A stretch of DNA of 34,463 bases from an uncultured Holophagaceae bacterium (GTDB taxonomy: Bacteria > Acidobacteriota > Holophagae > Holophagales > Holophagaceae). Shown one piece after another: positions 6,636 through 33,229 of this stretch. A program made the translations under genes and the position numbers. The number at the start of each line of letters is the position of its first letter. The first letter of the stretch is position 1. The stretch is from NCBI GenBank assembly GCA_903880675.1, contig CAIRQL010000148.1:1-34463 (forward strand), given 5' to 3'. The notes under the pieces were generated by a model, which worked only from the letters and a program-made list of their open reading frames with translations, was not told the DNA's origin and searched no databases.

Positions 6636-7295
6636 CTAAGGCTCGAGGAGACCCTTCGAGACGGCGTAGGTGGTCAGGGCCGCAACGGAATGGAGGCCCA
6701 GGCGCTTCATCAGGTTTGCGCGATGTCGCTCCACGGTCTTGGGGCTGATGCCGAGGTGGGTGGCGATGTCCTTGCTGCGCCTGCCTTCGGCCACCAGCTT
6801 GAGGACCTCCCGTTCCCGCACGGAGAGGACATCGTACATGGATACCTCTGGCGGGACCTCCTTCACGAGGTAGCGGGCGACGACCTTGGTGGCGATGGCC
6901 GGGCTAAGGACGCGCTCTCCGGCCAGCACACTGAACAGGGCCGTCCGTAGCTCATCGGAGTCCGAATCCTTCAGGAAATACCCATCGGCGCCGGCCGTCA
7001 GCGCCGCAAAGAGGTGCTCCTCATCCTTGTGGGCCGTCACCACCAGCACCCGGCTCCCATCACTGACCCGCTTGATCTCCCTGAGGGCCTCGATGCCATT
7101 GGTGCCTGGCATCGAGAGATCCAGCAGGACCACGTCCGGCTGTAGTGCCTGGGCGCTGCGGATGCCCTCCTGGCCGTCGGAAGCCTCTCCCACAACCGTA
7201 AAGTTGGGCCAGGACTCCAGGAGCGAGCGCAGGCCCTCCCTCATGAGGGCGTGGTCCTCCACGATGAGCACACTGTATTTCCTTTTCTGATTCAT
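6636..7295 (-). CDS. NarL/FixJ-family response regulator
   Basis: The 219-residue two-domain regulator has a receiver domain with acidic pocket Glu13-Asp14, phospho-acceptor Asp59 (VVLLDLSMPG), switch Thr in VVTAHKD and Lys in YFLKD. A LuxR-type helix-turn-helix follows at about residues 150-215 (LSVREREVLKLVAEG, then ISPKTVERHRANLMKRL). It should bind DNA when phosphorylated by its partner kinase. Its ATG overlaps the kinase stop as ATGA, so kinase and regulator are translationally coupled and almost certainly cognate. Target genes are unknown; the divergent CheB-CheR-PAS gene is an obvious candidate by position only. Confidence 0.93.
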   Translation of the reverse strand: MNQKRKYSVLIVEDHALMREGLRSLLESWPNFTVVGEASDGQEGIRSAQALQPDVVLLDLSMPGTNGIEALREIKRVSDGSRVLVVTAHKDEEHLFAALTAGADGYFLKDSDSDELRTALFSVLAGERVLSPAIATKVVARYLVKEVPPEVSMYDVLSVREREVLKLVAEGRRSKDIATHLGISPKTVERHRANLMKRLGLHSVAALTTYAVSKGLLEP

Positions 7296-8995
7296 CTGGC
7301 CCCCCGTTGAGGCGCGGTCTTGTTCGGTGGTGAGGAGCTCGGCCCTTGCGCCTTCGCTTTCGGAGAGGTGGGGCCGAACTCTTTTGCGCGCTGGAGCGGC
7401 GCCCCAAAGGACAGGGGCCAGCGTGCAAGTACCTGGGTGCCGCTGCCCGGGGACGACTCGACCTCGAAGGTCCCGCCGCTGGCTTCGGCCCGCTCCCGCA
7501 TAGAGGAGAGGCCCAGGCCTCCGCCGGTGCTGGCCCGGTCCACGGCGGTGGGATCGAACCCCTGCCCGTTGTCAGCGACCTTCAGGGTCAGGGTCCCCTG
7601 CGCCAAGCCCAGGCTGAGGTCGATCACGCTGCCCTTGCCGTGCTGCTCCGCATTGTGGAAGGCTTCCTGCACGACCCGGTAGAGAGTGATCTTGAGGGCC
7701 TCTGGGATCGCCTCCTCAGCGACCCGAATCCGCTTGTTCACCTGGATCATGGGGTGGCTGGTCTTGAAGCCGCGGAGGAACCAGTTGAGGGTCGGCAGAA
7801 TACCGAGGTCATCCAGCATGGAGGGCCGCAAGTCCATGGAGATGCGCCGAACCTCCTCGATGGCACCACTCAGAATGGTCATCATGGCGGGCGTGCAGGC
7901 CAGATGTCCGCCCTGGCCATCCGCGCGTGCTCCCACCACCCGTCCCCCCATGAGGCGCAGGGCGCTCAGGGTCTGGCCAAGGCTGTCGTGCAGATCCAGG
8001 GCAATCCGCTTGCGCTCGTCATCCTGGGCCGTGAGCAGGCGGGCAGACAGCCGCTCGAGCAGGGTGGTCTGGGCCTGGTGCTGGACTTCCAGGCTCTGGT
8101 TGAGCTTCAGGAGGCTCTCCTCGCGGCGCCGGCGTTCGGTGACATCGATGCAAAACAGGTTGGCGTAGCTGGCCTTGAGCACCGGCGTCACGAAGCAGAG
8201 CCAGTCAGTGCCTCGGTGACTGCTCGCCAACTTGCAGGGGCTGCCCTTGCGAAGAACCCGCTCAACGGTCTCACCGAGCTCCGCTGGCACAGGCTCGCCA
8301 ATGATCAGAGGCCAATCGACCAGGTGCTTCAGTGCACCTTCATTGGCATACAGCAGGTGGCCATCCTGGGAGATTCGCAGGATGGGATTCAGGTTCTCGG
8401 AGGGAAAGCGGGCCAGGTCCCGGAGCGATTCTTCCAGCTGCTTGAGGGGGGTGATGTCTGAGATCGCCAGGAGGTACTCCAGCGGGCCCTTCTCCGCTGG
8501 CAGGACCTTGAGCTCGATCCTCGCCCAGAAGAAGCTGGCCTTGGTCCGCAGCAGACGCAGCTCGAAAGCCGCCGTGCCCTTGGTCTCTCGGGACTTGGGC
8601 CGGTGCCGGTAGAAGATGTCCTGGTCCTCGCGGAGGATGAACGCGGAGAACCGCTGCATGACCAGCTGCCCCCGGGGCGCGGCCAGCAGGGTAGCCAGGG
8701 CGAGGTTGGCCTTCTGGATCAGCCCCTGTTCGCTGAGGGTGCAATAACCCACCGGTGCCAGCTCATACAGGTCGAAGTACCGCGCCAGGGAAGCGTCCAG
8801 CTCCACCTGCACCCTGCGCATTTCCTCGTTCTGGAGCTCCAGCTCGATCTGATGGACCTGGAGCTCATGGATCAGGTGGTGCAGCTCCGCAGGCGAGGCC
8901 TGTCCCATGCTGTCGGCGGACGCCCCCGGGCGGCCTGCAAAGATCCTCTCGGCTTGGCGGCGCAAGTCGCCAGAGGGCTTCGGCGAGTCGATCAT
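7292..8995 (-). CDS. Cytoplasmic PAS-containing histidine kinase, HisKA_3 type
   Basis: The 567-residue kinase has an N-terminal helical segment (HELQVHQIELELQNEEM, about 35-55). A PAS domain follows (about 65-185, ending in the typical ISDITPLKQLEE linker), then a second PAS-like domain (about 195-300, ending DVTERRRREES). The dimerisation/phosphoacceptor helix is ERKRIALDLHDSLGQTLSAL with His336. The HATPase_c domain shows N-box EAFHNAEQHG, G1 box DNGQGFD and G2 box GGLGLSSM. No membrane segment is seen, so the signal is probably intracellular or reaches it through PAS ligands. It is the NarX/LiaS-like subtype that pairs with NarL regulators, as here. The ATG at 8995 has only a weak GGAAT-like ribosome site. 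Confidence 0.93.
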   Translation of the reverse strand: MIDSPKPSGDLRRQAERIFAGRPGASADSMGQASPAELHHLIHELQVHQIELELQNEEMRRVQVELDASLARYFDLYELAPVGYCTLSEQGLIQKANLALATLLAAPRGQLVMQRFSAFILREDQDIFYRHRPKSRETKGTAAFELRLLRTKASFFWARIELKVLPAEKGPLEYLLAISDITPLKQLEESLRDLARFPSENLNPILRISQDGHLLYANEGALKHLVDWPLIIGEPVPAELGETVERVLRKGSPCKLASSHRGTDWLCFVTPVLKASYANLFCIDVTERRRREESLLKLNQSLEVQHQAQTTLLERLSARLLTAQDDERKRIALDLHDSLGQTLSALRLMGGRVVGARADGQGGHLACTPAMMTILSGAIEEVRRISMDLRPSMLDDLGILPTLNWFLRGFKTSHPMIQVNKRIRVAEEAIPEALKITLYRVVQEAFHNAEQHGKGSVIDLSLGLAQGTLTLKVADNGQGFDPTAVDRASTGGGLGLSSMRERAEASGGTFEVESSPGSGTQVLARWPLSFGAPLQRAKEFGPTSPKAKAQGPSSSPPNKTAPQRGAR

Positions 8996-9367: not shown

Positions 9368-12300
9368 ATGGCCCGAAAGATTGAAGCCAAACCAAAACGG
9401 ACACCCAAGACCCTCGCACCCTCCCCCCCTGCGCTCCCCGACGCCCCCGTACGGCAGCCAGCGAACCCGTTTCCCATCGTGGGCATCGGCGCCTCGGCGG
9501 GCGGGCTGGGTGCTTTTGAAGCCTTCTTCTCGGGCATGCCCGCCAAGGCGGATCCCGGCATGGCCTTTGTACTGGTCCAGCACCTGGCCCCCAATCACAA
9601 GAGCCTCCTGACGGAGCTCATCCGGCGCTACACCCGCATGGATGTCTTCGAAGTGAGGGATGGGATGGTGGTCCAGCCCAACTGCGCCTACATCATCCCG
9701 CCGGGCCGGGACATGGCCTTCCTGAACGGCACCCTGCAGCTGCTGGAGCCGGCAGCACCGCGCGGTCAGCGTCTCCCCATCGACTTCTTCTTCCGCTCCC
9801 TGGCCCAGGACCAGCGGGAACGGGCCATCGGCATCGTGCTCTCGGGCACCGGGAGTGATGGCACCCTGGGCCTGCGGGCCATCAAGGGCGAAGGCGGCAT
9901 GGCCATGGCCCAGACCCCGGAGTCCACCGAGTTCGCCGGCATGCCCCAGAGCGCCCTCGCCACAGGGCTGGTGGACTTCGTGCTGCCGCCTGCCGAGATG
10001 GCCGCCCAGCTCATGGCCTATGCGGCCCACGCCTTCGGCCAGCCCTTCACCCGGTCGACGAGCATCCCCTCGCCCAAGCTGGAAAATGCCCTGAAGAAGG
10101 TCTTCATCCTGCTGCGGTCCCAGACGGGCCACGACTTCTCCCAGTACAAGCCGAGCACCATCCACCGCCGCATCGAGCGCCGCATGGCCGTGCATCAGAT
10201 CGATGCCGTCGAGACCTATGTCAGCTACCTGCAGCAGGCGCCGGTGGAGGTGGAAGCGCTCTTCCGGGACCTGCTCATTGGCGTCACCAACTTTTTCCGG
10301 GACCCAGCGGCGTTCCAGGCCCTGGAAGACCTGGCCCTCCCCAGCCTCTTCGCCGACCGCCCCGTAGGCTCAGTGATCCGGGTCTGGTGCGCGGGCTGCT
10401 CCACCGGCGAGGAGGCCTACTCCCTCGCCATCCTGCTGCAGGAGCGCATGGAGGCCATGAAGCAGCGGTTCACCCTGCAGGTGTTCGCCACGGATATCGA
10501 CAGCCGGGCGGTGGCTGCGGCCCGGGCGGGCCTCTATCCGGCCAGCATCGCCGTCGATCTCTCACCGGAACGGCTGGCCCGGTTTTTCGTGCCCGAGCCC
10601 GGCGGCGGGGGCTACCGGATCCACAAGGGCATCCGGGACACGGTGGTCTTTTCCGAGCAGAACGTGATCAAGGATCCGCCCTTCTCCAGGCTCGATCTCG
10701 TCTGCTGCCGGAACCTCATGATCTACCTGGGCAGCGACCTGCAGAAGAAGCTGCTCCCGCTGTTCCACTACGCCCTGAACCCCGGTGGCATGCTCTTCCT
10801 GGGCACCTCGGAGACCGTGGGCGAGCATACGGACCTCTTTGGCGTGGTGGATCGCCAGGCCAAGCTCTACCAGCGCAAGGAGGACGCCCGCAGCAGCCGA
10901 CGGGCGGCCTTCGGCCCCTTCAGCCCGCCCATGACGGCGATCCACGCCTCCCTGCCCCAAGCAGCCGGCAAGACGGCCTACCCCGTGAGAAACCAGCTGC
11001 GCGACCTGACGGAGCACGCCCTCCTGCAGAAGGCCACCCCGCCGGGTGCCCTCGTCAACAGCCAGGGCGACATCCTGTACCTGCACGGCCGCACGGGGAC
11101 CTTCCTGGAGCTGGCCGCCGGCGAGGTCGGCCTCCCCAACATCCTGAAGATGGCTCGGGAGGGCCTGCGCCGCGAGCTGGTCACAGCTCTCCACACGGCC
11201 GCAGGGACCAGCGAGCCGGTGAGCTGCCCGGCCCTTCAGGTCAGGACCAATGGTCACTTCACGCGGGTCAACCTGAGCATCCATCCCCTGGCGGGCCGAG
11301 GGAGCAAGCTGGCTCCAGGATCCCTGGAGGCAGACCTCTTCCTGATCGTCCTGAAGGAGACTGGCGCCCCGGTCTTGGCCGGACCCGAGCCAGCGCCAGG
11401 AACCCCGGATCCAGCTTCGCTCTCCGGGGGGGACATCACGGCGCTCAAACAGGAGCTGCGCATCAAGGAGGAGTACCTCCAGACGGCCAATGAGCAGCTG
11501 GAGACCTCCAACGAGGAGCTCAAGTCCTCCAACGAGGAGATGCAGTCGGTGAACGAGGAGCTGCAGTCCACCAACGAGGAGCTGGAGACCTCCAAGGAAG
11601 AGCTGCAGTCGGTGAACGAGGAGCTGGCCACCGTCAACGGGGAGCTGCAGACCAAGGTGGTGGATCTGTCCCGGGCCAGCAACGACATGAACAACCTGCT
11701 GGCGGGCACGGGCATCGGCACGGTCTTTGTGGACCTGCACCTGCGCATCCTCCGCTTTACCCCCACGGCCAGCGCCATCATCAACCTGATTCCCAACGAT
11801 GTGGGGCGCCCCGTGGCCCATCTGGTATCCAACCTGGTGGGCTGCGACCACATGATCACGGATGCGCAAGCGGTCCTGGATTCGTTGATCCCCAGGGAAG
11901 CGGAAGTGCAGACCAAGGACGGCAGGTGGTTCACCATGCGGATCCAGCCCTATCGCACCCTGGATAATGTCATCGAAGGCGCCGTGATCACCTTCGTGGA
12001 CATCACTGAGCGGAGGCAGGCCCGGGAAGAACTGCAGAAGGCCAATCAAAAAATTCAAACCATGGTTGAGAGCATCACCGATGGCCTGCTGGTCCTGGAC
12101 CACGCCTGGGTCTACACCTACTTCAGCGAGATGGGTGCGAAGATCCTCGGGATGCGCCGCGAGGAGCTCATCGGGAAATGTGTCTGGGACCTGTTCCCCT
12201 TGGCCAAAGACTCCAAGTTCAGCGAAAACTTTCGCCAGGCTGTGCAGACAGGGCTACCGAATCACTTTGAGGAGTACTACCCGGGACCCCTCAACAAGTG

Positions 12301-12766
12301 GTTGGAGTGCCGCTGCTATCCCTCTGCGGACGGGCTGTCGGTGTACTTCCACGACATCACCGAGCGCAAGCGCACCGAGGAAGCCCTAAAGGAAGCCAAT
12401 GACTTGCTCCGCCTGGCGGTGGTCGTCCGGGATGCCCACGATGCCATCACGGTCCAGGACCTGGAGGGCCGCACCCTGGCCTGGAACCCCGGGGCGGAGC
12501 GGCTGTATGGCTGGACGGAAGCCGAGGCCCTGGCCATGAATGTCCGGGACCGGATTCCGAAGGAGCTCCAGAAAGGGGCCCTGGCCACCCTCGCCCAGCT
12601 CAGTCGGGCCGAGATTCTGGCGCCGTACCTGACCCAGCGGCTCACCAAGGATGGCGCCAGCCTGGCCGTCTCGATCATCTCCACAGCCCTGCTCAGGGAA
12701 TCCGGAGAGCTGTACGCCATCGCCACCACCGAGCGACCCGCGCCATCAGCCGCACCGACCCCCTGA
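9368..12766 (+). CDS. CheB-CheR hybrid with coiled coil and three PAS domains
   Basis: This 1132-residue fusion begins with a CheB methylesterase domain (about 35-220; GASAGG with Ser43, QHLAPNH with His72, GTGSDGT with Asp164). A CheR methyltransferase domain follows (about 235-505; RRIERRM, SAM-binding WCAGCSTGEEAYS, VFATDID, CCRNLMIYL). Next is a long heptad coiled coil (about 693-768) of eight near-identical seven-residue units of the type NEELQST. Three PAS domains (about 775-890, 895-1010, 1012-1125) end the protein. CheB and CheR normally remove and add methyl groups on chemoreceptor glutamates. No receiver, kinase or GGDEF follows the last PAS. ATG 9368 is preceded by AGAGGTG. It probably adapts a receptor or signalling complex in response to PAS inputs. 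Confidence 0.93.
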   Translation: MARKIEAKPKRTPKTLAPSPPALPDAPVRQPANPFPIVGIGASAGGLGAFEAFFSGMPAKADPGMAFVLVQHLAPNHKSLLTELIRRYTRMDVFEVRDGMVVQPNCAYIIPPGRDMAFLNGTLQLLEPAAPRGQRLPIDFFFRSLAQDQRERAIGIVLSGTGSDGTLGLRAIKGEGGMAMAQTPESTEFAGMPQSALATGLVDFVLPPAEMAAQLMAYAAHAFGQPFTRSTSIPSPKLENALKKVFILLRSQTGHDFSQYKPSTIHRRIERRMAVHQIDAVETYVSYLQQAPVEVEALFRDLLIGVTNFFRDPAAFQALEDLALPSLFADRPVGSVIRVWCAGCSTGEEAYSLAILLQERMEAMKQRFTLQVFATDIDSRAVAAARAGLYPASIAVDLSPERLARFFVPEPGGGGYRIHKGIRDTVVFSEQNVIKDPPFSRLDLVCCRNLMIYLGSDLQKKLLPLFHYALNPGGMLFLGTSETVGEHTDLFGVVDRQAKLYQRKEDARSSRRAAFGPFSPPMTAIHASLPQAAGKTAYPVRNQLRDLTEHALLQKATPPGALVNSQGDILYLHGRTGTFLELAAGEVGLPNILKMAREGLRRELVTALHTAAGTSEPVSCPALQVRTNGHFTRVNLSIHPLAGRGSKLAPGSLEADLFLIVLKETGAPVLAGPEPAPGTPDPASLSGGDITALKQELRIKEEYLQTANEQLETSNEELKSSNEEMQSVNEELQSTNEELETSKEELQSVNEELATVNGELQTKVVDLSRASNDMNNLLAGTGIGTVFVDLHLRILRFTPTASAIINLIPNDVGRPVAHLVSNLVGCDHMITDAQAVLDSLIPREAEVQTKDGRWFTMRIQPYRTLDNVIEGAVITFVDITERRQAREELQKANQKIQTMVESITDGLLVLDHAWVYTYFSEMGAKILGMRREELIGKCVWDLFPLAKDSKFSENFRQAVQTGLPNHFEEYYPGPLNKWLECRCYPSADGLSVYFHDITERKRTEEALKEANDLLRLAVVVRDAHDAITVQDLEGRTLAWNPGAERLYGWTEAEALAMNVRDRIPKELQKGALATLAQLSRAEILAPYLTQRLTKDGASLAVSIISTALLRESGELYAIATTERPAPSAAPTP

Positions 12767-12850: not shown

Positions 12851-13051
12851 GTGGTGACTGCGGGGTGGCGTGTGGGCACGGAAGATGAAGGCGCCATCCT
12901 GCGGGTGCTGGCGGAGCGCTACCCCACCCTCAAGGAGCTGCGGAAGGCCAACCCCCCGGAGGCCGCAAGCTTCCTGAAGGGCACCCAGAAGCAGTCCGAG
13001 AGCTGGCCAGTGGATGCGCTCATCGACGGGTATCTGGATAACCAGCCCTAG
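12851..13051 (+). CDS. Small hypothetical protein, start uncertain
   Basis: A 66-codon frame starts at GTG and has strongly coding-like third positions and an amphipathic helical sequence (AILRVLAERYPTLKELRKA). No family was recognised. There is no convincing ribosome site before GTG 12851. A 17-codon ATG frame (12804-12857) ends across this GTG, so coupling is conceivable. The frame is the same as that of the CheB-CheR gene and is open back to that gene's stop at 12766, so it could also be a detached 3' remnant. It is convergent with the cytochrome fusion gene; their stop codons share CTAG at 13048-13051. Confidence 0.4.
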   Translation: MVTAGWRVGTEDEGAILRVLAERYPTLKELRKANPPEAASFLKGTQKQSESWPVDALIDGYLDNQP

Positions 13052-14787
13052 GGGCGCAATGACTCCGGGTGGATGATCCACTCGCTGCGGCGGAGCAGCT
13101 GGGGATCGGGGCCGGGGCTGAGCTGCATGATGTAGCAGCCCTTGGCGGCATAGCGCTGGCCGGGACCAAAGCTGAGCCGAAGGTAATCCGGGAGCGCCTG
13201 TTCCGCCTGCATCCCGATGCGGTCCAGGAGGTTGTCCCGGTAGAAGTTGAGGTACATCTCGGCGAGGCCTTGGCGGAGCACCTGGATCATGGAGTAAACA
13301 CGGGTGGCAATGCGCGACTCGGGGTTCCTCGGCGTCAGCCCGGCCATCAGCGTAGCGGCATACTTCGAGACCTCGGGTTCGTGCTTGGGGTCCCGGTAGG
13401 GATAGGTGATGCGGGTGAAGGCCCTCGCCCCCTCGGGCAGCTCCGACACTGTGGGGCCCAGCAGGCGCGAGGAGAGAAACACCTGCTCGGGGTGCCTGGC
13501 GGACTCCGCCAGCTCGCCCAGGGCCGCGAAGGAGCCGGGACCGGTCCAGAGGAGGAGCGCCGCCGGCCGCTCCTTGCGCAGCAGGGCATGGAGCCGGGCG
13601 CCAGAGACCTGGGTCTCGCCCTGGCCGAGGCGGACTTCCTTCAGGCCGCGCCGTCCCAGCTCCCGCCAGGTCTCCCGGAAACCGGCAGCGAGGGCCTGAC
13701 CCGCCGGGCCCTCCTGGGTGATCTGCAGGACCCGTCCGCCCGGGGGCAGGCTGGCCAGGTAGCGGGCGGCGGCCTGCCCTTCCTGATAGAACCCCTTGGA
13801 GAAGTACAGCGTGTACCAGTCGGTGTTGGAGAGCACCGGCAGGTCGGTGATGGGCAGCAGGCAGGGCAGCCGGTGGGTCTCGCAGAAGGTGTGGATGGGC
13901 CGCCAGTCCCCGTAGGAAATGCCCCCCAGCAGGGCAAAGACGGGCTCCTCTGCCAGATAGGCCTCCAGCTGTCGCCCCCAAGTCTCGGGGGCGCCCTTGA
14001 GGCGCCAGACGGAGAGGGCCAGCTTGCGGTAGCTGCCGTTCATCTCACTGCCACCGGCGCTCTGGTACATCCGGTTGTCGAAGCCGTCCGAGTAGCGGTT
14101 GTGCCGCGCCAGGTAGTTGTTCATGGGCACCAGCATCGCCCGCTCGTCCTCGAGGCTGACCTCCTCGGTGACGACGGTGGCAAAGCGGATGGTGGTGGCG
14201 TCCACGCCCGGGGACACGGTGGCCGAGAGGGAGCGCAGGTAGTGGATCAGGATGGCCATGTTCGGGTCGGACAGCTGGAACCGGGGCATGGCGGGATGCA
14301 GCTCATGACCCGTGGGGTCCACACCGGTGCGGAGGACCCGGGCCAGGGTCGCGTCGGTGTAGGCGGGTCGCGCCTCCGGCGTGATGGCGAGGATGTCCTT
14401 CCGGGCCTCGGGCGAGAGGTTTGGGAGCTTCCAGTAGCGGGGCTGGAACAACCGGGCGGCGTTGGCGGGGAGCGTGACGACACCCCCCTCGATGGAGCCG
14501 ACGCCGCTCCTCAGGTGACAGCTCAGACAGGTGAAGGTGCTGCCCGGTACGGGCACACCCTCGCTCACCTGGGTCCCCAGGGGGGCACCGGAGGGCAGGA
14601 GGCCCTGGCGGTACATGCGCTCGCCCAGGGCCAGTGCCCGGTCGGGAGAAAGCCCTGCCACAGCCCCGGAGGAGGAGGCTGGGGCAGGGTCCCGGGTCCC
14701 CGCACAGAGGGCCCCGGAAAGAACCAGGACGCCCAGCACCCAGCCAAGGGTCCTGGACACCTGGGCGCAGAGTCCACGCCCCCTCAT
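13048..14787 (-). CDS. Cytochrome c fused to type-1 periplasmic binding protein
   Basis: The 579-residue exported protein has a signal peptide (LGWVLGVLVLSGALCAG, cut near residue 27). A mono-heme cytochrome c domain carries CLSCH at Cys87-Cys90-His91 and a Met-containing HPAMPRF segment as possible sixth ligand. From about residue 195 to the end it matches the leucine/amide-binding type-1 periplasmic binding fold (VFALLGGISYGDW, LPVLSNTDWYTLYFSKGFYQEG, ending AAKGCYIMQLS). The start is ATG 14787, since upstream codons in this frame give non-protein-like sequence. The fusion implies a periplasmic redox protein whose electron transfer may depend on ligand binding. No transporter genes adjoin it, so import is unlikely to be its role. 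It lies 94 bases after the propeller gene and is possibly cotranscribed. Confidence 0.85.
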   Translation of the reverse strand: MRGRGLCAQVSRTLGWVLGVLVLSGALCAGTRDPAPASSSGAVAGLSPDRALALGERMYRQGLLPSGAPLGTQVSEGVPVPGSTFTCLSCHLRSGVGSIEGGVVTLPANAARLFQPRYWKLPNLSPEARKDILAITPEARPAYTDATLARVLRTGVDPTGHELHPAMPRFQLSDPNMAILIHYLRSLSATVSPGVDATTIRFATVVTEEVSLEDERAMLVPMNNYLARHNRYSDGFDNRMYQSAGGSEMNGSYRKLALSVWRLKGAPETWGRQLEAYLAEEPVFALLGGISYGDWRPIHTFCETHRLPCLLPITDLPVLSNTDWYTLYFSKGFYQEGQAAARYLASLPPGGRVLQITQEGPAGQALAAGFRETWRELGRRGLKEVRLGQGETQVSGARLHALLRKERPAALLLWTGPGSFAALGELAESARHPEQVFLSSRLLGPTVSELPEGARAFTRITYPYRDPKHEPEVSKYAATLMAGLTPRNPESRIATRVYSMIQVLRQGLAEMYLNFYRDNLLDRIGMQAEQALPDYLRLSFGPGQRYAAKGCYIMQLSPGPDPQLLRRSEWIIHPESLRP

Positions 14788-14881
14788 GGGGACTCTGCCA
14801 GATGGCGAAACGGGGTGGTGGGCTGCATGTCCCCTCCTCCGATGGGCAAACGGCCGGGTGAACGTTCCTTGCTGGCGAGCG

Positions 14882-17266
14882 TCAGGGAATGGTCCCCACC
14901 ACGGTGATGGAAACAGGGGCGGTGCCAGTCGGGTAGAAGGTGGGCTCCAGGAGGACACCGGTGACGGGATCCACGGAACAGAGGGCGATCTGGTTGCCGT
15001 GGTAGTCGGCGAGGAAGCCCCACTTCCCACTGCGGCTGACCACCAGGCAGTCCGACCCGGCGGCCTCGAACAGGTCATAGTCATCGTCCATGATGGGCGT
15101 GAGCGCACCGGAGATCAGGTCCAGGGCATAGGCGGCGAAGTCGTTGTCCGAGTTCACCAGCGTGATGTAGATCACGGCCTGCGTGGGATTCGCAGCGACG
15201 CCGTGATAGGCGTCACTGTTGTTCAGCCCCGTGTCCATGGGTGCCAGGTCCGTCAGGCCACCCGTGGCAACGTCCACGTGGTACCCATAGACGAGGCAGG
15301 CCTGGGCGGCACCACCGGCGCGGCCCTCACTCTTGGTGTAGAGGTACTCCCCCGTGTGGCTGAGGGCCAGGGCCAGGGGCCCGGTGCTGGCGGGCAGGTT
15401 GCGGGTGGCGTTCGGTGTGAGGGCTCCGGTGGCCGGGTTCAGGGTGAAAACCTGAAGGGTGTCCGAGGTTCGGCCCGCGGTGAACAGGTACAGCCCGGAG
15501 CCGTGGATGAGCACATCCCCGGTGCCGCCGGCGGTGGCGATGCTGGGCGTGGCCAGCGGCAGGAGGGCACCGGTGGTGGCGTTGAGTGCGTAGGCCGAGA
15601 GGGACCCCTCGCAGCGCACATAGACGAACTTGCCACCGGGATCCACGGCGGCGGACCAGGGCCCGGTGCCGGTCGCATAAGCAGCCACTCGGGTCAGGGC
15701 GCCGGTGGCGGCGTTGATGCTGTAGACCGTGAGGGTGTTGACCTTCACCACGCCATTCCCGTTCACCACAAACAGGAACTTGCCGGCGGGATCGGAGGTG
15801 ACATGGAGGGCCGTGGTGGCGACGTCGTAGGGCGACTGGGCCAGTGCCCGCAGGGCCCCGGTGGCCTCATTGAGGGAGAACCCGCTGATGCCTCCGCCGG
15901 CATTGGCCACGTAGACGAACTTGCTCGTGAAGGTGCGCACCGCCACGGTGAGAGCCTGCTGGGTGGCCTGCCCCACTGAGTTGGTGGTCGTGAGGGTGTA
16001 GGTGGTTCCCACGGTGGGCAGCACGGCGATCTGGCTGCCGCTCGTGATCGTTCCCACGCCCTGGTCAATGCTGCCGTCCCCGGTGAAGGTGAATGTCAGC
16101 AGGGTGCCCTGCCCCGTCGTGATGGCGGCGGGGTTGGCCCTGAAGGCCGTGATGGTGGCGGGGTCCGGTACCGAGACCGTGACCGAGTCGTAGGTGTAGT
16201 CCCCGGCCAGGTTCGTTACCCGCAGGGTGTAGGTGGTGGTGACCGTGGGCTTCACTTCCCGGGTGGCTCCGCTGGTGACAGTGCCGATCGCGTGGTCGAC
16301 CACACCGGTCCCCCCGCTGAAGGCAAAGCCCAGAAGGGTGGCGGTGCCGGAGGCGACCTCGGTCTCACTGACGTAGAGCTGTTCGATGGTCGGGAAAGCC
16401 ACGATGAGGCTGCTGGCACTGGCCGCCGCGGAAGGGGTTCCCGCCGCGTTGGTGACCTGGCAGCCGAGGACGACGGACCCGGTACTTCCGGGGGCGAAGG
16501 TGATGCTGGCGGTGCCCGCCCCGGTTACCAGGGTGCCGCCACTGAGGGTCCAGGTGTAGGTGGAGTCAGCCTGGGCGGGCACCGAGGCGCGGTAGCCGGT
16601 TTCGCCTGCGGAGACATGGGTCGGCGCAGTGATGACCGGCGTGCTGGGGGCCGCCACGATGGTCGCCGTGGCGAGGCCAGCGCTGGAGGGGGTGCTGGCC
16701 GCATTGGTGGCCACGCAGCTCAGGCTGACGGAGCCCGTGGTGCCGGCCGTGAAGGTGACGCTGGCGCCGCTGGCGGCGGAGCTAAGCGTGCCGTTGGTGA
16801 TGGTCCAGGCCAGGGTCATGCCGGGTTGGGCAGGGGCCGAGGCGGTGTAGCCGCCCAGGCCTGCCGTGACCTTGGTGAGTGCCGTGATGACGGGCACGCT
16901 GGGCGCTGGCGCCAAGGCCACCGCCGTGGTGGAGACGGTGGCGACACTGGCCGAGTTGGTCACCGTCAAGGTGTAGGTGGTATCCGCCGTGGGGGCCACC
17001 GTGACCGGGGTGCCGCTGGTGATGGTTCCGACGCCCTTGTCGATGACCCCGGTGCCGTTGGAGAACACGGCGGTCAGCGTGGTGGTGGTGCCGGTGGTGA
17101 TGGGAGTCTTGGCCGCGCCGAAGCTGGTGATCACCGGCGTTGGCGGGGGAACGGCGGCAGAGCCGCCCCCACCGCAGGCGAGCGAGGCCAGCAGACCCAG
17201 CACGCCAACCCCGAGGAACACAATGGCTTTACGAAAGATGCTGGGCCAAACCAGGACCGAGGACAT
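14882..17266 (-). CDS. Secreted Ig-like repeat / lactonase-type beta-propeller protein
   Basis: The 794-residue protein has a signal peptide ending LASLACGGGGS. The Cys followed by a Gly/Ser tether looks like a lipoprotein attachment site, although the lipobox is not canonical. Residues about 38-440 are several Ig-like repeats with recurring ITSFGA...TITTG...GVGTITSG...TTYTLTVTN pattern. Residues about 445-790 form a propeller of the 6-phosphogluconolactonase/YncE type, with blades of the form KFVYVAN...FSLNEATGAL. Such propellers often act as binding scaffolds rather than enzymes. ATG 17266 has GGGAG upstream. It follows the multicopper oxidase on the same strand but a strong terminator lies between, so it needs its own promoter. 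Confidence 0.85.
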   Translation of the reverse strand: MSSVLVWPSIFRKAIVFLGVGVLGLLASLACGGGGSAAVPPPTPVITSFGAAKTPITTGTTTTLTAVFSNGTGVIDKGVGTITSGTPVTVAPTADTTYTLTVTNSASVATVSTTAVALAPAPSVPVITALTKVTAGLGGYTASAPAQPGMTLAWTITNGTLSSAASGASVTFTAGTTGSVSLSCVATNAASTPSSAGLATATIVAAPSTPVITAPTHVSAGETGYRASVPAQADSTYTWTLSGGTLVTGAGTASITFAPGSTGSVVLGCQVTNAAGTPSAAASASSLIVAFPTIEQLYVSETEVASGTATLLGFAFSGGTGVVDHAIGTVTSGATREVKPTVTTTYTLRVTNLAGDYTYDSVTVSVPDPATITAFRANPAAITTGQGTLLTFTFTGDGSIDQGVGTITSGSQIAVLPTVGTTYTLTTTNSVGQATQQALTVAVRTFTSKFVYVANAGGGISGFSLNEATGALRALAQSPYDVATTALHVTSDPAGKFLFVVNGNGVVKVNTLTVYSINAATGALTRVAAYATGTGPWSAAVDPGGKFVYVRCEGSLSAYALNATTGALLPLATPSIATAGGTGDVLIHGSGLYLFTAGRTSDTLQVFTLNPATGALTPNATRNLPASTGPLALALSHTGEYLYTKSEGRAGGAAQACLVYGYHVDVATGGLTDLAPMDTGLNNSDAYHGVAANPTQAVIYITLVNSDNDFAAYALDLISGALTPIMDDDYDLFEAAGSDCLVVSRSGKWGFLADYHGNQIALCSVDPVTGVLLEPTFYPTGTAPVSITVVGTIP

Positions 17267-22664: not shown

Positions 22665-23360
22665 CTAGGCGTCCAGGATCTGCCCGTCCCGCATCTCGAT
22701 GCGTCGGGTGCCGAGGCTCGCCAGGGCCGGGTTGTGGGTCACCATGACGATGGTGAGGCCCGCCCGGGCACTGAGCTCCTGCAGGATCTCGCCGATCTCC
22801 TGGGTCCGCTGGGTGTCCAGGCTGCCGGTGGGTTCATCCGCCAGGAGCAGCGCCGGTTTGTTCACCAGGGCCCGGGCGATGGCCACCCGCTGCATCTCCC
22901 CGCCGGAGATCTGCCCCGGCAGGTGGTTGCGTCGGTGTTCCATCCCCAGCAAGGCCAGCAGCCGGTCCACTTCCCCCTCCACCCCGGGCTTGCGGTAGAA
23001 GGCCAGGGGCAGGGCCACGTTCTCAGCCACGGTGAGGGTGGGGATCAGGTAGAAGTTCTGGAAGATGTAGCCGAAGATCTCCCGCCGGATCCGAGTGAGG
23101 TCCCGCTCGCCCAGGGGGGCCCCCCCGCCGAAGATGCGCCGACCCGCCACGTCCAGCTCACCGGCGGAGGGGTTGTCCAGGCAGCCCAGGAGGTTCACCA
23201 GGGTGGTCTTCCCGGAGCCGGAGGGCCCGGTGAAGGAGATGAAGTCGCCCCGCTGGATCTGCAGCGACACGCCATTGAGGGCCTGGACCTGCTCGCTGCC
23301 CCGGCCGTAGAGCCGCGTCAGGCCCCGGGCCTCCAGGATGATTTCCGAACCGGGTGTCAT
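22665..23360 (-). CDS. ABC transporter ATPase, MacB/LolD type
   Basis: The 231-residue nucleotide-binding subunit has Walker A GPSGSGKT (45-52), Q-loop Gln101, signature ISGGEMQR (151-158), Walker B LLLADEP (171-177) with Glu176, D-loop GSLD and H-loop His209. The sequence QNFYLIPTLTVAENVALPL is characteristic of the MacB/LolD/FtsE branch, which works by mechanotransmission rather than classical import. The start is ATG 23360, overlapping the permease stop as ATGA; a longer frame is not protein-like. It powers the adjacent FtsX-like permease. Last gene of a four-gene operon. Confidence 0.93.
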   Translation of the reverse strand: MTPGSEIILEARGLTRLYGRGSEQVQALNGVSLQIQRGDFISFTGPSGSGKTTLVNLLGCLDNPSAGELDVAGRRIFGGGAPLGERDLTRIRREIFGYIFQNFYLIPTLTVAENVALPLAFYRKPGVEGEVDRLLALLGMEHRRNHLPGQISGGEMQRVAIARALVNKPALLLADEPTGSLDTQRTQEIGEILQELSARAGLTIVMVTHNPALASLGTRRIEMRDGQILDA

Positions 23361-24541
23361 AGCCCCCCCCGGATGGAGTCCAGCGGGCGCACCCGCCCGG
23401 CCTTCCAGGCGGGATACACGCCGCTCAGCAGACCCACTGCCACGATGATCACCAGGGTGAGGGCGCACAGCTTCAGGTCGATGGCCACCAGCTCCCCGCC
23501 CGGGGCATAGGGCAGGACCCGCCGCACCAGGAGGTCGGAGAGCCGGGCGAAGGCCAGCGCCAGCCCGATGCCCAGCACCCCGCCGCTGGTGCAGAGGATG
23601 AGGGTCTCGGTCCAGACCAGGCGGAAGATATCCCCCGGCATGGCCCCCATGGTCTTCAGGATGCCGATCTCGTGCTGGCGCTCCATCACCGACATGAGCA
23701 CGGTGTTCACCACGCCGACCATGGCGATGAGCAGGGCGATGACCGCGATGGACAGCACCATCACCCGGGCCGTGGCGATGAGCTTCATGATGGTCTGCTT
23801 GACCTGGCTGAAGCTCACCACCTGCATGTCCGGCAGCTGGTAGAGCGCGGCTTCGAGCTTCGCGATATCGGCATCCTTCTTCACCTTGATGCCGATGGTG
23901 GTGATCTTGTCGAGGCCCGCCACCCGCTGGAGGGTCTTGAGGGGGACGAAGATGGTGCCGTCATCCTGGGTGCCGGTCCGCTCCAGGATGCCCACCACCT
24001 TCAGCTCGACATTCTTCTCCGGCACGAGGATGGAGTCCCCCACCTCGCGCTGCTCCAGCTCGGCGGCCTCGAAGCCCATGACGGCCTCGGCGGCTTCGCT
24101 GCCCTGGGGCCACCCGCCCCGCTGGAAGCGCAGGAAGGGCTTCATGGCCGGGAAGGTCTGCATGTCCACGCCGTAGTACCCGGCGATGCCGCCCCCATCG
24201 CCCTTGTTGGGATCGAAGAAGGCCTGCATGAGGATGGGGGTCACCCCCGCCACTTCGGGCCGAGTCTCGATCCCCTTGGCCACGTCCTCCTCGATGTACC
24301 GGAGGCCTGCCCCGCCCTGCAGCATCATGGTGGCGGCCTCGTAGGGACAGCCCTTGGCCATGACCATGATCTGGTAGCCCATGTTGTCGATGTCGCGGTT
24401 GAGGGCCGCCTCGTAGCCCCGGTTGAAGCCCAGCAGGCTCACCAGCACCCAGGAGGACAGGACGATGCCCACCAGCGTCAGGAAGGTGCGCGCCTTCTTC
24501 CGCAGCAGGTTCTTGAAGGCGATCTGGTGCCGGCTGATCAT
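23357..24541 (-). CDS. MacB-type FtsX-like ABC permease
   Basis: The 394-residue protein has one N-terminal membrane helix (about 18-38). A large extracytoplasmic MacB-periplasmic-core-like domain spans about 45-260. Three C-terminal helices (about 265-292, 312-340, 358-380) form an FtsX domain; VVNTVLMSVMERQHEIGILKTMGA is the family hallmark. The ATG overlaps the preceding gene's stop as ATGA and its own stop overlaps the ATPase start, so production is tightly coupled. The transported or released substrate is not evident. The two upstream exported proteins of the operon are likely partners. Confidence 0.9.
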   Translation of the reverse strand: MISRHQIAFKNLLRKKARTFLTLVGIVLSSWVLVSLLGFNRGYEAALNRDIDNMGYQIMVMAKGCPYEAATMMLQGGAGLRYIEEDVAKGIETRPEVAGVTPILMQAFFDPNKGDGGGIAGYYGVDMQTFPAMKPFLRFQRGGWPQGSEAAEAVMGFEAAELEQREVGDSILVPEKNVELKVVGILERTGTQDDGTIFVPLKTLQRVAGLDKITTIGIKVKKDADIAKLEAALYQLPDMQVVSFSQVKQTIMKLIATARVMVLSIAVIALLIAMVGVVNTVLMSVMERQHEIGILKTMGAMPGDIFRLVWTETLILCTSGGVLGIGLALAFARLSDLLVRRVLPYAPGGELVAIDLKLCALTLVIIVAVGLLSGVYPAWKAGRVRPLDSIRGGL

Positions 24542-25200
24542 GGGACGACCGGCGTGGGGGCCAAAAAGAATGCATCCATGAGGACGAGGTTCTTGTTCAC
24601 GGCCCGCAGCAGGCCGAAGAAATCAGTCGCCGCCTCCGGGGCCGGATTGACCATGGCCGCCACCCTGCCCCGGCCCTTGCCCGTCAGCAGGTTGTACTGG
24701 TCGAAGTCCCGCAGGGTCAGGCCCACGAACGGGGCGCCGAACTTGCTGGCGGTGAACTTGCTCGCCCACTGGCCGGCGATCCGCTGCAGGTAGAAGGCCT
24801 TGATCCGGCCTTCCAGATCCAGGGACACGAAGACCTCCAGGACGCCGAACTGCCCCTTCTGGTTCACGCCGTGGACATAGCCGATCTTCTTGGTCCCCTT
24901 GTAGACCTCGTAGAGCACATAGGGCACATCCAGCGGGGCGTAGAGCGCAGGCACCCCGCCGAGGCGGGCTTCCACCTTCCGCAAAAGGGGTGGACCCCCG
25001 TGCCCGGCGAAGGAGAAGTAGATCGTCTTGAACCCAGTGGAACCTGGGAACAGGCGGGCCACATCACTGGCGGGAAAGTTCAGCTCGCAGCTGATAGCCG
25101 CCGACAGGGGGGTGGCCAGGGGGCAGAGACACAGGATGGCCGGCACGAGGAGGCCCTTCCCCGTGGGAAAAGACAGCCTGGTCCCGAAGCCTGTGTGCAT
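24538..25200 (-). CDS. Exported protein, weakly FMN_bind-like
   Basis: The 220-residue product has a signal peptide (LLVPAILCLCPLATPLSA, cleavage near residue 34). Its core, YKGTKKIGYVHGV...GVLEVFVSLDLEGRIKAFYLQ, resembles FMN_bind domains of RnfG/NqrC type. The usual flavin-attachment SGAT motif is not present; the matching region reads NPAPEAATD, so covalent flavin binding is doubtful. The ATG at 25200 has a GGGAG ribosome site, and its stop overlaps the permease start. It probably works on the outer face with the ABC permease. The family assignment is tentative. Confidence 0.6.
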   Translation of the reverse strand: MHTGFGTRLSFPTGKGLLVPAILCLCPLATPLSAAISCELNFPASDVARLFPGSTGFKTIYFSFAGHGGPPLLRKVEARLGGVPALYAPLDVPYVLYEVYKGTKKIGYVHGVNQKGQFGVLEVFVSLDLEGRIKAFYLQRIAGQWASKFTASKFGAPFVGLTLRDFDQYNLLTGKGRGRVAAMVNPAPEAATDFFGLLRAVNKNLVLMDAFFLAPTPVVP

Positions 25201-25214
25201 GGTGGCCCCGCTCC

Positions 25215-25688
25215 CTAGAGGTCGAACAGATAGGCGCCGTGGAACCCTGCAAAGCCCTTTTTCTCAAAGGTGAAACGCAGCTCCCAGTCCCCAGGCATGA
25301 CCAGCGAGACCGGCAGGAGGTAGACGCCCTGCTTGGAGCAGGCGAAGGGCCTATCCCCGGAGCTGTGGGCGCCCCTCATGGACGGCATGTCCAGGTCGCC
25401 CTTGATCGTGTAGGAGGTGTCACGCTCGCCCCCCTTGCGAAAGACCTCGACGCGCATGACGGCCATGCCCAGCTTGGGCTGCTTGGTGAACCCGTAGATG
25501 AAGTAGGTGTCCGGATCGAGGGCGACCTTCTGGCCGGGCTTGGGCAGGGTGGTGTACACCTTGCGGGCCGCTTCCGGCGGCGGACTGCCCTCAAGGCGCC
25601 CCTCCCAAAAGCCTCCCGCCAGGATGAGCGCCAGCGCCCCAGCAAGGATCCGCTGGGCAGTCTCCGAAGCAGGCTTGAAGCGAAGCAT
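25215..25688 (-). CDS. YtkA/FixH-like exported or anchored protein
   Basis: The 157-residue protein has one N-terminal hydrophobic segment (ILAGALALILAGGFW), serving as signal or anchor. The C-terminal 100 residues match the YtkA/FixH pattern: a Pro-Lys core strand, the hallmark DLDMPSM, then GVYLLPVSLVMPGDWELRFTF. FixH- and YtkA-type domains occur in copper/heme-oxidase maturation and cation handling. ATG 25688 is preferred because GGGGTGG precedes it; a GTG two codons earlier is possible. First gene of the four-gene ABC operon, 14 bases before the FMN_bind-like gene. Confidence 0.7.
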   Translation of the reverse strand: MLRFKPASETAQRILAGALALILAGGFWEGRLEGSPPPEAARKVYTTLPKPGQKVALDPDTYFIYGFTKQPKLGMAVMRVEVFRKGGERDTSYTIKGDLDMPSMRGAHSSGDRPFACSKQGVYLLPVSLVMPGDWELRFTFEKKGFAGFHGAYLFDL

Positions 25689-26062
25689 ATCCACCCCAAT
25701 TTACAGTTCTATTTTGCGCCAATTTTTGCCTGTCAATTTTATATTTTATCACATGTTGTTGATTTTTTTTGAACAAAAAAAATAGAACTATATTTTTATC
25801 AACACTTTAAAGATATTAAATAAACTATAACAGACTAATATTATAGGACATCCCGGCCCCATGTCCATCCCAAGATTTGGGTTAAATCCATTGAATACCA
25901 GTCAAAATTCAAGGTTTTTTCTGTTATCCCGAAATCCCGTTTCGATGGTTCCTCTTCCAGGCCCTCGCCAGCCGTCCTGCCCCCCAGGGGTAATTGCGTT
26001 CTTGCCCACCCAACCAGCCGTCTCTCGCCTCCCCCTCCACCCGTCCCCATGAAGGGGGTCCT
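25689..26062. promoter_or_regulatory. Divergent AT-rich regulatory region
   Basis: This 374-base gap lies between the ABC operon (leftward) and a chemoreceptor gene (rightward). It holds an 11-base perfect inverted repeat, AGTTCTATTTT at 25705-25715 and AAAATAGAACT at 25779-25789, and a second pair TGTTGAT at 25757-25763 with ATCAACA at 25798-25804. These look like operator half-sites around promoters. The right part (25850-26050) is of ordinary composition with no gene visible. Confidence 0.5.
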
Positions 26063-27604
26063 GTGACCGCCATGAACCTCCGCCGCTCCCTCGGAGCCAA
26101 GGTGCTGACCCTGGCTTCGGTCATCATCGTCCTGGTCTTCAGCTTGATCCTTGGGGTCAATGCCATCGCCCAGCGCCGGGATGCCACGGAGCGGATCTCC
26201 CAGGGGGGCCGGAATGTGGCCGGAATGTTGACCCTGGCCATGGACGGCACCATGCTCCGGGGTGATGTGGACGAGATGCGGGCGGTCTTTCAGAAGGCCC
26301 GTGACCTCAACCCGAACCTGACCCTGCACCTCACCGATGCGACCGGCAAGGTGAAGTTCACCACAAGGGATGCCCTCCTGGGCTCGAGCCTGACCGCCAC
26401 AGCGGCTCAGACGGACCTGCGGGAGATGGTGGCTGAGGCCATCCAGAAGCAGGCTGAGCCCCAGCGACTGGTGGACCTGGACGGACGACGCAGCCTCCTA
26501 CAGGTGCGGACCATTGTCAACGAGCCCCGGTGCCATGGCTGTCACGACCCGGCCGTGGCCATCTCCGGGAGCATGGTGACCATCCAGGATGTGAGCGCCG
26601 ACTGGCGGGCCATGAATGCCCAAAACGGTCTGGCAGCGGGCCTCTCCCTGGCGGGCCTGCTCATCCTGATGACCGGCCTTGGCTGGGTGGTCCATACCCA
26701 GGTGTCCCTGCCCCTGAAAGCCGTGGGGGCAGTGATCGAGACCGTGGCCCAGGGGGACCTGACCCGCCGGGTGGAGCTCCAGTCCAGGGATGAGCTGGGC
26801 GAGCTGGGCCGGGTGCTCAATGAGTCGAATGAGGGCCTGCGGCAGATGGTGGTCCGGATCCAGGAGAGCGCCGAGGCCATCGCCACGGCGGCCGGCGAGA
26901 TCTCCATGGGCAACAACGACCTCAGCCGCCGCACGGAGGAACAGGCCGCCAGCCTGGAGGAGACCGCCAGCAGCATGGAGCAGATCACCAGCAACGTGAC
27001 CCAGACCGCCAACAACGCCCACTCGGCCAACGCCGAGTCCGGCAAAGCCCGCCAGGTGGCCCAGGATGGCGGCGCCGCCGTCACCCAGGTCATCGCCGCC
27101 ATGGAGTCCATCAACGCCTCCTCCGCCAAGATCAACGAGATCATCGGCGTGGTGGATGAGATCGCCTTCCAGACCAACCTGCTGGCCCTCAACGCCGCCG
27201 TGGAAGCCGCCCGGGCCGGTGAGCAGGGTCGTGGCTTCGCCGTGGTGGCCGCCGAGGTGCGCAACCTCGCCAAGCGCAGCGCCGAGGCCGCCAAGGAGAT
27301 CAAGGGCCTGATCCGCGAGAGCGTGGCCAAGTCCGAGGATGGCAACAAGGTGGCCGCCCATGCCGGGTCGACCATCCGGGCGGTGGTCAGCAATGTGCAG
27401 CGGGTGACCAGCCTGGTCAGCGAGATCGCCAACGCCACCCAGGAGCAGAGCACGGGCCTCAACGAGGTCAACAAGGCCGTGGTGCAGATGGACGAAGTCA
27501 CCCAGCAGAATGCCGCCCTGGTGGAGCAGGCCGCCGCCGCCGCCGAGTCCCTGGACGGCCAGGCCCGCACCCTCACAGAGATCGTCGCGCGGTTCAGGAC
27601 CTGA
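26063..27604 (+). CDS. Methyl-accepting chemotaxis protein with CHGCH heme-type sensor
   Basis: The 513-residue receptor has TM1 about 12-32, a periplasmic sensor (about 33-190), TM2 about 193-215, a HAMP domain to about 275 and a cytoplasmic methyl-accepting hairpin. The hairpin tip reads [20 protein letters not shown]. The sensor contains CHGCH (Cys157-Cys160-His161), a c-type heme attachment motif; heme-c sensor domains are known in Geobacter chemoreceptors. It may therefore sense redox state or a gas. GTG 26063 is chosen because AAGGGGG lies just upstream; ATG 26072 is the alternative. The C-terminus lacks a WxxF tether. The signalling half is nearly identical in DNA to that of the receptor at 30653-32371. 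Confidence 0.92.
26730..27600 (+). repeat. Inverted duplicate of chemoreceptor signalling region, arm 1
   Basis: This stretch and the reverse complement of 30838-31712 encode the HAMP-to-tip half of two chemoreceptors. They are almost identical at nucleotide level, with exact runs longer than 60 bases (for example starting at 27061). That is far more than protein conservation requires and suggests recent duplication or gene conversion. The arms are in opposite orientation about 3.2 kb apart, so recombination between them could invert the interval. Confidence 0.8.
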
Positions 27605-32694: not shown

Positions 32695-33171
32695 CTACTT
32701 CTTCCCCGGCATCTTTTGAAGGTCCATGCGGGTGGCGCGCTTGGTGAGGGCCGTGTGCAGCTTGTCCAGGTGGGCCTTGTCGTGGCACTTGCCGCAGGTG
32801 GCATCCATGTTCTGGCGGGCCACCCGGGAGCCGGGGTCCTTGCGGGACAGCAGCTCGTGGGCGTGGCCGTGGCAGGTCATGCAGGTGGGGGCGTGGTCCT
32901 TCCCCTTCTTGCGGGCCATGCCGTGCACGCTGTTGGCGTACTCCTGGCCCTGGTGGTCATGGCAGCGCACGCAGTTGGGCGGGGACATCTTGTCGGGGTG
33001 GGGCAGCTTCTTCGTGGCCGTGTGGCAGGCGAAGCACTGGAGTCCCCCATGGGCCCGGGTGCGGAACACGTCCAGCTTGATGGTGTCGTGGCAAGCCACA
33101 CAGTCATCGGCATCCGGAGGTGGGGCTGCAGCGAGGGCCGTGGCCAGCAGGGCAGCGAACAACAAGCGCAT
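32695..33171 (-). CDS. Exported pentaheme c-type cytochrome
   Basis: The 158-residue protein has a short signal peptide (cleavage after about residue 16). Five CxxCH sites sit at Cys24, Cys46, Cys67, Cys97 and Cys126 (CVACH, CFACH, CVRCH, CMTCH, CGKCH). Further histidines (such as 41, 58, 73, 83, 93, 103, 105, 134, 139) could give bis-His ligation, as in low-potential c3/c7-like cytochromes. It is Lys- and His-rich and has no membrane anchor, so it is probably a soluble periplasmic electron carrier. ATG 33171 has AGGAG upstream. It lies 58 bases after the TauE-type permease on the same strand, possibly in one operon. Confidence 0.9.
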   Translation of the reverse strand: MRLLFAALLATALAAAPPPDADDCVACHDTIKLDVFRTRAHGGLQCFACHTATKKLPHPDKMSPPNCVRCHDHQGQEYANSVHGMARKKGKDHAPTCMTCHGHAHELLSRKDPGSRVARQNMDATCGKCHDKAHLDKLHTALTKRATRMDLQKMPGKK

Positions 33172-33229
33172 GGGGTCTCCTGAGAGGGCTGGGGACCAAC
33201 CTAGCACAACTCAAGCGCTTGTCTTTACA

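Follow-up and report, generated by a model that had tools for sequence, protein, structure and literature searches.

A MofC-like fusion of cytochrome c and a type-1 periplasmic binding protein, and its linkage to copper-delivery genes

In the 34,463-nucleotide contig of an uncultured Holophagaceae bacterium analysed here (the window), one gene encodes an exported chain in which a cytochrome c is joined to a type-1 periplasmic binding protein (PBP). This fusion most likely aids cuproenzymes in receiving copper or electrons rather than nutrient import. Across its relatives it tracks copper-delivery genes more closely than it tracks an oxidase, which suggests a concrete role for it, in cuproenzyme maturation or electron supply. 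The proposal is based on the architecture, the heme ligands, the PBP fold, the conservation of the N-lobe and the linkage to copper genes.

Architecture, kinship and distribution of the fusion

The preliminary description of the gene, as a cytochrome c fused to a full type-1 binding fold in one exported chain, was borne out by invariant heme ligands, Pfam and the predicted fold (Table 1). The protein carries a Sec-type signal peptide and is probably periplasmic; no copper-binding motif was evident in it. C87, C90, H91 and M167 were invariant across all 64 aligned homologues, and a chance CxxCH motif can therefore be dismissed. A class I cytochrome c with His/Met ligation needs such a conserved set of two Cys, a His and a Met. 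The heme part is a monoheme cytochrome c, with Met167 as the likely sixth ligand, and its Cytochrom_C match (residues 86-188, E = 0.005) lies below the Pfam cut-off. For the second half, Pfam gave Peripla_BP_6 (PF13458) at residues 255-511 with E = 2.4e-15. An AlphaFold model built with the homologue alignment reached a pLDDT of 88.7 and a pTM of 0.89, and in fold comparison the PBP half of this predicted model matched 4n03 with a Z of 26.8 (rmsd 5.2 over 359 residues) and LivJ (2liv) with a Z of 25.3. A sequence-profile search of the PDB with the fusion returned no PBP at E <= 0.01, only a dehydrogenase cytochrome; the grounds for the PBP assignment are Pfam and the fold. Homologue matches spanned both domains in nearly all relatives, with a few fragmented or ending early. 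Separate coding of the two domains, raised earlier as a possible objection, is thus not what the relatives show, and full-length relatives across several phyla ruled out a fusion artefact. A leader ORF of 14 codons, MQPTTPFRHLAESP, lies at 14784-14828, preceded by a GGAGGAGG ribosome site; it ends in an ATGA that overlaps the start codon of the fusion, which suggests translational coupling.

Table 1 Features of the fusion gene and of the genes upstream of it in the window
Feature	Position	Strand	Remarks
Cytochrome c / type-1 PBP fusion, MofC-like	13048..14787	-	579 aa (P0001); start ATG 14787, stop 13048; Pfam, alignment, AlphaFold
Heme domain, residues 50-193	14209..14640	-	CLSCH and invariant Met167
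CLSCH, residues 87-91	14515-14529	-	
Met167 codon	14287-14289	-	
Complete type-1 PBP fold, residues 198-573	13069..14196	-	Pfam, AlphaFold, fold comparison
Exported beta-propeller protein with Ig-like N-terminal repeats	14882..17266	-	PF10282 Lactonase, E = 1.2e-23
Giant OmpB/MofA-type multicopper oxidase, 1598 aa	17444..22186	-	ORF open from 22240, ATG 22186
ABC transporter ATPase	22665..23468	-	True start probably downstream of 23468
MacB/FtsX-type ABC permease	23357..24541	-	
Exported protein, predicted FMN-binding-domain fold (RnfG/NqrC type)	24538..25200	-	Conserved; without Pfam match
YtkA-like exported protein	25215..25694	-	Weak Pfam match, below cut-off

MofC-like proteins adjoining OmpB/MofA have been described as carrying a cytochrome c and a periplasmic binding domain; OmpB is required in Geobacter sulfurreducens for the reduction of insoluble iron oxide, MofA is a putative manganese oxidase, and OmpB/MofA homologues are predicted to be extracellular (He et al. 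2017, PMC5566968). MofC of Leptothrix mofABC and GSU1397 of the Geobacter ompB cluster combine both domains in one chain, as the window fusion does, and likewise lie beside an OmpB/MofA-type multicopper oxidase. At a mofBCA-like locus (L147), genes for FKBP, the fusion and a MofA-type oxidase are consecutive; its fusion is 29% identical to that of the window over 567 aligned columns (E = 3e-75), and its oxidase is 45% identical to the window oxidase, FN3-like region included. On the strength of the published description and the likeness of L147, the window gene was filed as MofC-type, with MofC and GSU1397 matched by description and L147 serving as the sequence proxy. The MofC-type architecture beside OmpB/MofA is already published, and the window gene adds another example; the preliminary account of the gene's context had passed over this precedent as well as the multicopper oxidase and the ABC operon. 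SCO and FKBP-type PPIase (MofB) genes occur in relatives of the MofC/GSU1397 kind, whereas neither is adjacent to the fusion in the window. Unlike the MofC and GSU1397 clusters, the window has an Ig/lactonase-type propeller between fusion and oxidase, and a YtkA/FMN-fold/MacB-type operon that precedes the oxidase.

Among genome contigs, the fusion was encoded at 13 loci, in Holophagaceae, Geobacter, Trichlorobacter, Pelobacter, Desulfobulbaceae, Sedimenticola and others. It was present in 51 of 117 genomes of Geobacterales (the order of Trichlorobacter), in 11 of 297 genomes of the window's phylum and in 9 of 399 genomes of an order taken, from gene content, as Burkholderiales (the order of G781); a single-sequence search found it in 3 of 398 Pseudomonadota. 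The family is patchy beyond Geobacterales and Holophagaceae.

Copper genes near the fusion

Upstream of the fusion in the window, on the same strand, lie the propeller gene, the oxidase gene (two genes up) and then the YtkA/FMN-fold/MacB-type ABC operon. The oxidase has all four copper motifs (HLHG at 306, HDH at 371, HPVHFH at 879 and HCHILGH at 981) and matches CotA laccase with E = 5.8e-40, and its core is followed by an FN3-like region and repeats. Phe occupies the usual axial Met position of its type-1 copper (HCHILGHEENDFM), as it does in 15 of 41 motif copies of the family set, nearly all others having Met; this residue could give a higher-potential copper site. Around the fusion, genes for the FMN-fold protein keep company with those for YtkA, FtsX and the ATPase, and inspection by eye did not reveal the usual SGAT flavinylation motif in the window copy. 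SCO, NosL and FKBP genes were not found beside the fusion in the window, and a NosL-like motif was absent from the whole window; three SCO-family matches lie on other contigs. The earlier statement that no transporter is nearby does not hold: the MacB-type ABC transporter at 22665-24541 shares the strand of the fusion gene and lies 8 kb upstream of it. This transporter does not belong to the LIV-type importers.

A search for the same architecture and its neighbours, as proposed in the preliminary description, yielded 74 loci. Genes for SCO were found near the fusion in 53 of these, multicopper oxidase in 42, FtsX in 24, FKBP in 21, a NosL-motif gene in 17, and YtkA and the FMN-fold protein in 11 each, whereas the same profiles detected none of these seven kinds in any of 40 control segments. 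The controls were 19 kb segments from 13 of the same genomes; the p-values of the comparison are indicative, because segment lengths were similar to those of the loci but not identical and the controls came from fewer genomes. SCO lay directly upstream of the fusion on the same strand at 45 loci, and an oxidase within 4.5 kb on the same strand at 41. A copper-chaperone-type gene (SCO, NosL or YtkA) was near the fusion at 64 of the 74 loci; 27 loci had such a gene without a multicopper oxidase, and the reverse was seen at 5, an imbalance that speaks for delivery or maturation more than for catalysis alone. Five relatives (L077, L085, L113, L148 and L149) had no copper gene in the flanking DNA examined. 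Within Geobacterales, an oxidase was encoded in 45 of the 51 genomes with the fusion versus 25 of the 66 without it (n = 117; Fisher p = 1.9e-8, uncorrected for phylogeny).

Two arrangements recurred: SCO, fusion, FKBP or kelch propeller, and oxidase (type A), and YtkA, fusion, FMN-fold protein, FtsX and ATPase, often with NosL (type B). The window and three further loci (L086, L102 and L105) combine the two. Where type-B loci had no local oxidase, one was encoded elsewhere in the genome (G303, G315, G317, G359, G376 and G384).

Proposed role and competing readings

On balance we favour the fusion as an electron-carrying partner in the copper loading or electron supply of cuproenzymes, with the PBP half docking the client or a ligand. 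Because the fusion follows copper-delivery genes even without a nearby oxidase, electron supply together with client holding is the best-supported role. The fusion would work with an OmpB/MofA-type multicopper oxidase, presumably its main client, or with another cuproenzyme. Its PBP half would hold the apo-cuproenzyme or a copper chaperone of the SCO, NosL or YtkA class, and the heme would meanwhile exchange electrons one at a time with copper or thiols. The outcome would be insertion of copper, its maintenance in the Cu(I) state, or electron exchange by the mature oxidase. What we infer in this scheme is contact with a partner, which way electrons flow and what the cleft contains. A narrower version, offered tentatively, is a redox-active maturation chaperone for the OmpB/MofA-type oxidases of metal-reducing bacteria, in which the PBP fold may clasp the apo-cuproenzyme or copper chaperone and the tethered heme may set the redox state of copper or thiols during metal loading.

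The cytochrome might instead act as a catalytic carrier only, exchanging electrons with the mature oxidase at the surface while metal is oxidised or reduced, with the PBP half as a docking scaffold. Such a role was proposed for MofC with MofA by Brouwers et al. 2000, as cited in He et al. 2017 (PMC5566968), and the closeness of a same-strand oxidase at 41 of the 74 loci agrees with it. We nevertheless consider it rather unlikely, given the 27 loci with copper-chaperone-type genes but no nearby oxidase and the predicted extracellular location of OmpB/MofA homologues (PMC5566968), as against a soluble exported cytochrome that is probably periplasmic.

Three roles had been offered at the outset, and of these a redox enzyme subunit fits best, given the synteny of the fusion gene with genes for a multicopper oxidase and for copper delivery. 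A ligand-gated electron carrier or sensor, in which closure of the PBP cleft by a small molecule alters heme access or signalling, fits less well, as nothing was found that points to a ligand for the fusion. Strong conservation of the N-lobe side of the cleft leaves this reading a small share of probability. The type-1 fold is complete, and the cleft, whose possible degeneracy had been named as a point to check, is not degenerate: loops 283-303 and 306-330 rank with the most conserved parts of the PBP half across the 64 homologues (0.77 versus 0.48 for the C-lobe), and W295, P312, P317, Y328 and E336 are invariant. By an approximate alignment these loops are the counterparts of the N-lobe ligand loops of LivK. 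The alignment to LivK is weak (hhalign with a single sequence, probability 40), so the mapping of the cleft and of the amino-acid contact residues is approximate. So mapped, the LivK contacts appear mostly replaced: S79 corresponds to S291, kept in 43 of 64 homologues, T102 to Asp315 and E226 to the variable position 441. The conserved neighbours, moreover, belong to copper handling and not to catabolism or uptake, and the one-lobe conservation would fit a protein-docking face as well as a pocket for some ligand. We judge a ligand-gated carrier or sensor improbable.

That the fusion is an ordinary substrate-binding protein of an ABC importer which happens to bear heme is very improbable: the fold and Pfam family are LivJ-type and the run of same-strand genes includes an ABC transporter, but this transporter is of the MacB/FtsX type and an FtsX-type permease is near the fusion at just 24 of 74 loci, and with the LivK ligand positions mostly replaced in the approximate mapping a LIV-type importer binding protein was rejected.

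The favoured role, as electron-carrying partner of cuproenzymes, has its nearest functional analogue in the XoxG/XoxJ fusion of Methylacidiphilum, by analogy rather than shared membership. That protein also unites a cytochrome c and a periplasmic binding protein in the service of a periplasmic metalloenzyme, and XoxJ is proposed to assist cofactor insertion into apo-XoxF (PMC8170126, PMC12997753). Its enzyme is a PQQ methanol dehydrogenase, whereas that of the window fusion would be a multicopper oxidase. XoxJ/PedG-type proteins are annotated as amino-acid (PAAT) type binding proteins, and membership in the XoxG/J group was rejected since Pfam assigns the window PBP to Peripla_BP_6 (type 1) and not to the SBP_bac_3 (type-2) class. 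If our proposal is right, the fusion would follow XoxG/J as a second, independent instance of a periplasmic metalloenzyme served by a cytochrome joined to a binding protein. The type-B loci also resemble the genes for nitrous oxide reductase maturation (NosL, FMN-domain NosR and NosDFY) in that NosL occurs around the fusion together with an ABC transporter and a protein of FMN-domain fold, but their permease is FtsX/MacB-type. To our knowledge, nos clusters have no counterpart of the fusion. In PedA1A2BC, too, a periplasmic redox enzyme is accompanied by a propeller, an ABC transporter and a binding protein, the last of the TIGR03863 family. Kinship of the fusion to PedA1/TIGR03863 was tested because of the shared propeller and transporter; it was rejected, with no match at E <= 1, none by phmmer and an hhalign probability of 2.9.

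On the plus strand of the window, a CheB-CheR-PAS fusion of 1132 aa (9368-12766) is flanked by the cytochrome-PBP fusion gene on one side and by a histidine kinase/LuxR-type regulator pair (6636-8995) on the other. A methyl-accepting chemotaxis protein (25994-27604) contains a CxxCH motif (CHGCH) and is possibly a heme sensor, and a small multiheme c-type cytochrome with Cytochrome_C7/c3 Pfam matches is encoded at 32695-33207.
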